A DNA stretch of 64,000 nucleotides. It comes from Candidatus Binatia bacterium. GTDB lineage: Bacteria > Desulfobacterota > Binatia > UBA9968 > JAJDTQ01. A program made the position numbers and the translations under genes. The DNA lies in contig JAJEAI010000039.1 in the NCBI GenBank assembly GCA_022824205.1, positions 1 to 64,000 on the forward strand, given 5' to 3'. Below are positions 5,110 through 28,116 of this stretch, piece after piece. The notes under the pieces were generated by a model. That model saw only the letters and a program-made list of their open reading frames with translations. It made no database searches and was not told the origin of the DNA. Positions within the stretch are counted from its first letter, which is position 1; every line of letters starts with the position of its first letter.

Positions 5110-5227
5110 CCTCGATACGTCATTCCCGCGAAAGCGGGAATCCAGGGGCGCTGGCGGAACGTTACAAGGGCGTTTCCCCGCCTCACCACTCCTGGATTCC
5201 CGCTTTCGCGGGAATGACGTATCGAGG
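5110..5227. repeat. Long inverted repeat of the same palindromic family, between convergent genes
   Basis: 37-bp perfect arms CCTCGATACGTCATTCCCGCGAAAGCGGGAATCCAGG at 5110-5146 and inverse at 5191-5227. Confidence 0.92.
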
Positions 5228-10311: not shown

Positions 10312-10653
10312 TCAGGGCAGCTTCCCGAGCCTCAGCGGCAGCCGCGTTCCCAGCCATAGCGACCGGTCGCGGTGGTCGCCCACGTGCTCGCCCGTGCTGG
10401 GGTGGATCAGGATGTCGAGGCCTTGGCGGTTGAGCATGAGCCAGGGGACTACCCCGGCAAACTGGTCGGGGGCGAAGGCCACCTGGTACATGGCCTTGGG
10501 GTGGGGACCCACGGGGACGTCGTGCCAGCGGCCCAGGACGACGTCGAAACGGTCGCCGAGCCCTTCGCGGACACGCCCCGCGACTTCCCTTGTGTCACGG
10601 TCGTAATAGACGTGAGCGTGGTAGCCGGAGATTTCGGTTCCCTCTTGCGCCAT
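10312..10653 (-). CDS. DOPA 4,5-dioxygenase family protein
   Basis: ISGYHAHVYYDRDTREVA...VGPHPKAMYQVAF...WLMLNRQGLDILIHPSTGEHVGDHRDRSLWLG. Confidence 0.88.
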   Translation of the reverse strand: MAQEGTEISGYHAHVYYDRDTREVAGRVREGLGDRFDVVLGRWHDVPVGPHPKAMYQVAFAPDQFAGVVPWLMLNRQGLDILIHPSTGEHVGDHRDRSLWLGTRLPLRLGKLP

Positions 10654-10687: not shown

Positions 10688-10725
10688 TAAAGAAAAGCGG
10701 GCTCCCCTCCCGAGAAGAGCCCGCT
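10688..10725 (-). terminator. Rho-independent terminator
   Basis: AGCGGGCTC stem, 12-nt loop, GAGCCCGCT, then TTTTCTTTA on the minus strand. Confidence 0.85.
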
Positions 10726-10934
10726 CCCGGCGTTCATCCACGCCGGTCGATGCGTATCTTTCTTGTCCGGCTCCCCTGCCAGGGTTGCCGTCAACGAGCT
10801 TCCGGGATTGCTGTCCTTTGCTGCCTTTTCCCCTCACGTATAACGGCGTTAAAGCCGTGTTGTCCAACACCTGAGTCGGGACGGTCAGCCGGTAGCCGCC
10901 TTCGGCAAACCTGCGGGGAACCCCGCCAGCCCGC

Positions 10935-10976
10935 TTAGCGCGGGCATCCCGTGTCGGGCGGATTGTCTATAGTCAT
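10935..10976 (-). CDS. Candidate 13-aa leader peptide MTIDNPPDTGCPR
   Basis: AGGAGG 6 nt upstream of ATG; stop codon TAA lies in the loop of hairpin GCCCGC-gctaa-GCGGGC. Confidence 0.45.
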   Translation of the reverse strand: MTIDNPPDTGCPR

Positions 10977-11064
10977 CTGACACCTCCTGGCGGTTTGATG
11001 ACCGAGCCCGGAACCTGCGCGCCAAGTCTTCGGGCTCTTGTCCGTTCGCGAACGAGACAACACA

Positions 11065-11094
11065 AGTGTAGGTCCGCATCCAGCCGGTTGTCAA
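11065..11094 (-). promoter_or_regulatory. Predicted sigma70-like promoter for the leader RNA
   Basis: TTGACA (11094-11089), 18-nt spacer, TACACT (11070-11065). Confidence 0.65.
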
Positions 11095-12690: not shown

Positions 12691-12868
12691 CTCAATGTTG
12701 CACAAGACTGTGTGAAGAACGATCCGAAGCACGCCCTACGGATCGTCATTCCCGCGGAAGCGGGAATCCAGGGGTTGGGGGTGTGGCGGCCTCATTGCCC
12801 GGTCCCACCCCGCCTGGATTCCCGCTTCCGCGGGAATGACTCGTTGGGGTGTAGCGGGATTCCGTAAC
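12691..12868 (+). repeat. Dispersed palindromic repeat, long copy with left flank and right tail
   Basis: Arms 12745-12772 and 12813-12840; tail to 12868 matches 231-258; left flank 12691-12744 matches the reverse complement of 24759-24814. Confidence 0.9.
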
Positions 12869-16919: not shown

Positions 16920-16944
16920 TGGATTCCCGCTTCCGCGGGAATGA
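16920..16944 (+). repeat. Half-copy of the palindromic repeat family
   Basis: TGGATTCCCGCTTCCGCGGGAATGAC between E1 alpha and E1 beta genes. Confidence 0.85.
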
Positions 16945-28021: not shown

Positions 28022-28116
28022 CGTCATTCCCGCGAAACAGGCTGTGTCAAAACCCCGCGGAAGAGGGAATGGCACAAACCCCCGAATCGTCATTCCCGCG
28101 GAAGCGGGAATCCAGG
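28022..28116 (+). repeat. Two decayed/half copies of the palindromic repeat family in tandem
   Basis: GTCATTCCCGCGAAA...GCGGAAGAGGGAAT (degenerate) then GTCATTCCCGCGGAAGCGGGAATCCAGG (28089-28116). Confidence 0.8.

Follow-up and report, generated by a model that had tools for sequence, protein, structure and literature searches.

Does the stretch of about 370 nt that separates a promoter from a terminator, immediately ahead of a dioxygenase gene, encode an RNA that controls that gene? The question arises on the minus strand of the window, the 64,000-nt stretch of DNA analysed here, which belongs to a 4.8-Mb genome. Binatota are reported from marine sponges (PMC9999580), and the genus bearing this locus consists largely of sponge-associated Binatia. 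A preliminary description had proposed a structured leader RNA or attenuator. We find a conserved, structured, terminator-ended leader containing a short open reading frame (ORF), which bears out the first part of that proposal; the second part, regulation of the dioxygenase, is still inference. On balance, the features described below favour a leader-peptide transcription attenuator acting in cis on the dioxygenase gene, and it is from sequence that we infer both cis-regulation and ribosome stalling.

The leader begins at a sigma70-type promoter (11065..11094, minus strand, as for all features below) in which TTGACA (11094-11089) and TACACT (11070-11065) flank an 18-nt spacer, with 10 of 12 consensus matches and an invariant T run before it. 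This promoter is where it had been reported and is kept in all nine species of the genus, most of which carry TAGACT as the -10 element. Promoter-like sites number two in 4 kb, against 0.4 expected; a comparison with the promoters of the genes for tmRNA, RNase P and SRP RNA was uninformative. At the other end, sequence, alignment and folds all place an intrinsic terminator (10688..10725) between leader and dioxygenase, again in 9/9 species. Its GC-rich stem and TTTTCTTTA had been described correctly, but the stem is predicted to have 12 bp rather than 9. A simple terminator scan omitted it; folds of all nine homologues include it.

The gene beyond the terminator (10312..10653), for a small enzyme of the ring-cleaving type, opens with an ATG at 10653 and has its own Shine-Dalgarno (SD) sequence. 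Its likeness to DOPA dioxygenase holds up in Pfam, where it matches the DOPA 4,5-dioxygenase family (PF08883, E 4.6e-33), and an orthologue lies directly 3' of the leader in each of the nine genomes, making it the putative regulated gene. Upstream of the leader, a GMC oxidoreductase gene is transcribed in the direction pointing away. From the end of the terminator stem to the dioxygenase ATG is 43 nt here and 28-47 nt across the nine species (for G005, 43 nt, measured to the homologous start and not to an internal ATG), and a promoter scan of the interval between terminator and dioxygenase start saw no promoter-like site. Because so short a spacing leaves no room for a promoter and none is visible, read-through is the simplest route to dioxygenase expression, and the gene most likely depends on it.

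In searches to phylum level, the leader RNA appears to be restricted to one genus. The arrangement is present in every one of the nine genomes of that genus (the eight relatives at 69-89% identity), in each case immediately before the dioxygenase. Within the RNA, column identity reaches 0.89, similar to that of neighbouring coding regions; the stretch immediately 5' of the promoter cannot be aligned, nor can the dioxygenase-TerB intergenic DNA. Comparison among the species shows selection on the RNA and its fold, on the terminator, and on the short ORF together with its SD. BLAST located the leader in 9 of 60 relatives, and a covariance model matched 9 of 150 genomes of the class, all from this genus. 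Among 396 genomes sampled from the phylum, the model again matched this genus only, with the proviso that the stricter filters used in the covariance-model searches may miss very distant relatives. Scanning 85,462 species genomes for the core motif described below returned six records of the genus and two other matches, in a Haladaptatus plasmid and an alphaproteobacterial MAG; these extend over only ~25 nt and were taken as chance. The dioxygenase itself is widespread in the order, there without the leader RNA, and none of 21 other dioxygenase loci (20 in genomes of order- and class-level relatives, plus one more) has the RNA upstream.

The several hairpins noted earlier were found again, are conserved in relatives and fold beyond shuffled expectation. 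The 377-nt leader has a predicted folding energy of -181.5 kcal/mol, compared with -146.4 +/- 4.8 in dinucleotide shuffles (z -7.3, 0/100). Single-sequence z-scores across the homologues range from -2.9 to -6.9, with part of the signal coming from the terminator end in some species. The antisense strand scores too, an expected property of hairpins. Folding the alignment gave z -7.6 against shuffled columns, and standard pairs fill 97% of pair cells in the consensus fold, a share that falls to 37-48% once partners are displaced by 1-3 columns. Compensatory double changes occur at five pairs, where shuffles average 3.8; covariation is scarce because the homologous sequences are too similar.

Alignment and folds place the first hairpin, P1 (UGUCUCGUUCGCGAACGGACA, 11039..11059), at the putative 5' end of the transcript; one of its pairs shows a compensatory change from U-A to C-G, in an alternative register. 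The next three are supported by the alignment and consensus fold. P2 (11004..11037) has a 5' strand, GAGCCCG, that is also complementary to the 5' arm of the terminator. P3 (10972..11002) is an invariant GUCAUC/GAUGAC stem that holds the start codon of the short ORF in its 3' strand and the SD in its loop, and P4 (10929..10945; GCCCGC/GCGGGC) takes its 5' arm from the last codons of the ORF, with the stop codon in the loop. The consensus fold then predicts P5 (10757..10927), a large multi-helix domain, and, together with individual folds, a pre-terminator hairpin (CCGGCGT/ACGCCGG, 10727..10746). In G001 (L009), P2 is enlarged by about 45-60 nt and contains repeated GCRTGTCC / CGAGACC units.

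The short ORF (10935..10976) lies where it had been reported, behind a strong SD, AGGAGGTG (10981..10988). It runs for 13 codons from an ATG at 10976 to a TAA stop at 10937-10935, encodes MTIDNPPDTGCPR and is conserved in relatives, with SD and start invariant across the nine species. The other peptides are MTKNNPPDTGRPL (n=2), MTTDNPPDTGRPL (+17 codons), MTKTVPPDSERP (n=2), MTKNSPPDHERP, MTKSSPPDSQRP and MTKSSPPDKERP, giving a family consensus of MTKxxPPDxxRP. In G005, the stop codon is lost and the frame extends to 30 codons. There is moderate evidence that the ORF encodes a translated peptide: 12 codons are free of indels in all nine species, amino-acid similarity exceeds that of column permutations (p 0.009) and pN/pS is 0.65. 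The codons for Thr2, Pro6 and Pro7 vary at the third base only, which is synonymous.

Under the attenuation model, transcription from the leader promoter would give the dioxygenase mRNA a leader of ~370 nt. The majority of transcripts would stop at the intrinsic terminator, yielding a short stable RNA, and a fraction would read through into the dioxygenase gene. Translation of the short ORF would bring a ribosome to a pause at the Pro-Pro-Asp motif, at the closing Pro-stop, or at both, and its position would decide whether P4 and the downstream domain fold, setting the frequency of termination. A ribosome footprint extends ~15 nt beyond the P site, so that a pause at PPD would be expected to place the ribosome over the 5' arm of P4. 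In E. coli without EF-P, PPD acts as a pause motif; among the PPX motifs of the efp ribosome-profiling data, it falls solely in the pausing group (PMC4140641). Relief of a polyproline stall by EF-P is also known to change termination where an intrinsic terminator lies downstream (PMC5021804).

A candidate antiterminator would form between GAGCCCG of P2 and the 5' arm of the terminator before the 3' arm is made. The pairing is predicted to be strong in ~6 of the nine species and is weak or lost in the others. Against shuffles, its complementarity gave p values of 0.01-0.83, and its length was unusual (p about 0.01-0.05) in 3/9 species only. The pairing is thus a weakly supported candidate and, because the complementarity is mostly ordinary and is lost in some species, a terminator/antiterminator switch is not established. 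Also counting against attenuation, relatives in the order control the same dioxygenase gene without the leader RNA.

Known leader-peptide attenuators offer the closest likeness. The ilvB-II motif of Corynebacterium, which is structured, restricted to its genus and equipped with a leader peptide, was shown to be an attenuator (PMC10272879), and our locus shares with it and with the trp/his type a conserved leader confined to one genus, a short ORF with a strong SD, hairpins and a terminator just before the gene. Unlike those systems, the peptide is not enriched in one pathway-linked amino acid, the downstream gene encodes a dioxygenase rather than a biosynthetic function, and a long invariant structured domain separates ORF and terminator. 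The EF-P- or proline-sensitive mgtCBR and mgtA leaders of Salmonella (PMC3641672, PMC6460261) also have a short ORF with proline codons inside a structured leader, which governs transcription beyond it; however, MTKxxPPDxxRP bears no sequence relation to their peptides and no Mg2+ transporter follows it.

The main rival, with a lesser though appreciable probability, is a stand-alone trans-acting sRNA, possibly dual-function through its 12-13 aa peptide, that lies upstream of the dioxygenase by happenstance. Its own strong promoter and terminator would suit such an RNA, as would the invariant core inside its large structured domain and the RNA's absence upstream of the same dioxygenase in relatives. 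Position alone is no proof of a functional link, given that all nine loci of the genus are syntenic on both sides of the leader and the neighbours are conserved as a block. The pairing of leader with dioxygenase is therefore not independent evidence, and the same synteny makes the attenuator and the stand-alone sRNA undecidable from sequence alone. What speaks against happenstance is the close placement of the dioxygenase start past the terminator in 9/9 species, equipped with an SD and lacking a visible promoter.

Within P5 lies a near-invariant core, CCGGCTGACCGTCCCGACTCRGGTGTTGGAYAACAC (10857..10892), seen in the alignment. The longest invariant run, 20 nt from 10892 at the 5' end of the core, exceeds the 99.5th percentile of shuffled columns (17 nt). 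As it lies downstream of the short ORF and outside it, selection there must act on something other than the peptide, and the core probably binds a protein, a ribosome or a metabolite. Were it a metabolite, the RNA could be a riboswitch of a new class, with the core as aptamer, ligand binding controlling the terminator and the short ORF secondary. We give this reading a slim chance. It would account for an invariant run in a folded domain of ~170 nt and for the order promoter, leader, terminator and gene, both familiar from riboswitches with expression-platform terminators. However, a riboswitch needs neither a conserved SD nor the translated-looking ORF found here, the RNA is restricted to one genus and matches no Rfam class, no mutually exclusive terminator/antiterminator pair is conserved in 9/9 species, and the gene context suggests no ligand.

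Weakest is the notion of a divergent housekeeping RNA or a decayed gene, a very improbable and largely refuted explanation despite the tmRNA-like combination of ~370 nt with a short ORF, and despite the failure of the Rfam model to find 6S RNA in any genome of the genus. An Rfam search of the segment, which the preliminary description had called for, covered 4227 families including riboswitches and returned nothing at the gathering threshold and only chance matches at E up to 10. It confirms the earlier impression that the leader resembles no tmRNA, RNase P RNA, 6S RNA, SRP RNA or riboswitch class. ARAGORN likewise found neither a tmRNA match nor a tRNA-like domain in the leader, and the genome's tmRNA is on contig C28; its RNase P and SRP RNAs are likewise encoded elsewhere. 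6S RNA is a single hairpin of ~185 nt with a central bubble, unlike the many helices and translated-looking ORF of the leader. A decayed gene, named at the outset as a finding that would overturn the proposal, is contradicted by ORFs on both strands that lack Pfam matches and by length differences among homologues that are not divisible by three. The leader RNA is new to Rfam and uncatalogued.

Three side observations were made in the course of these searches. The 6S model (RF00013) drew a blank in G000-G008 and found 6S RNA in two of four order-level relatives tested. A second RNase P RNA scored above the cut-off in two genomes of the genus (G006:C164:9474-9844 and G007:C118:1040-1417), possibly on contaminating contigs. 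Elsewhere in the window, a dispersed palindromic, REP-like repeat, TTCCCGCGRAAGCGGGAA, occurs at 140-227, 5123-5214, 12749-12836, 16924-16941 and 28093-28110, in eight copies versus 0.06 expected; in three places two copies lie inverted, separated by about 70-75 nt, and when translated it yields VIPAEAGIQ-like ends of spurious ORFs.

Returning to attenuation, a bolder and rather unlikely version can be envisaged. In it, whether transcription continues into a catechol-type dioxygenase gene would depend jointly on a ribosome paused on the PPD/RP-stop peptide and on an invariant domain, distinct from the peptide, that serves as a receptor. The RNA would thereby combine information on translation state (EF-P or proline supply) and on some other signal, and large regulatory RNAs would gain a new class. 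The reach of the finding is limited unless relatives appear, as the RNA belongs to a single genus of uncultured bacteria. Nonetheless, a phylum whose RNA biology is little known gains an uncatalogued RNA in which the short ORF is clear and the core strongly conserved. If the pausing reading is true, this attenuator would sense pausing related to proline and not the availability of a single pathway-linked amino acid.
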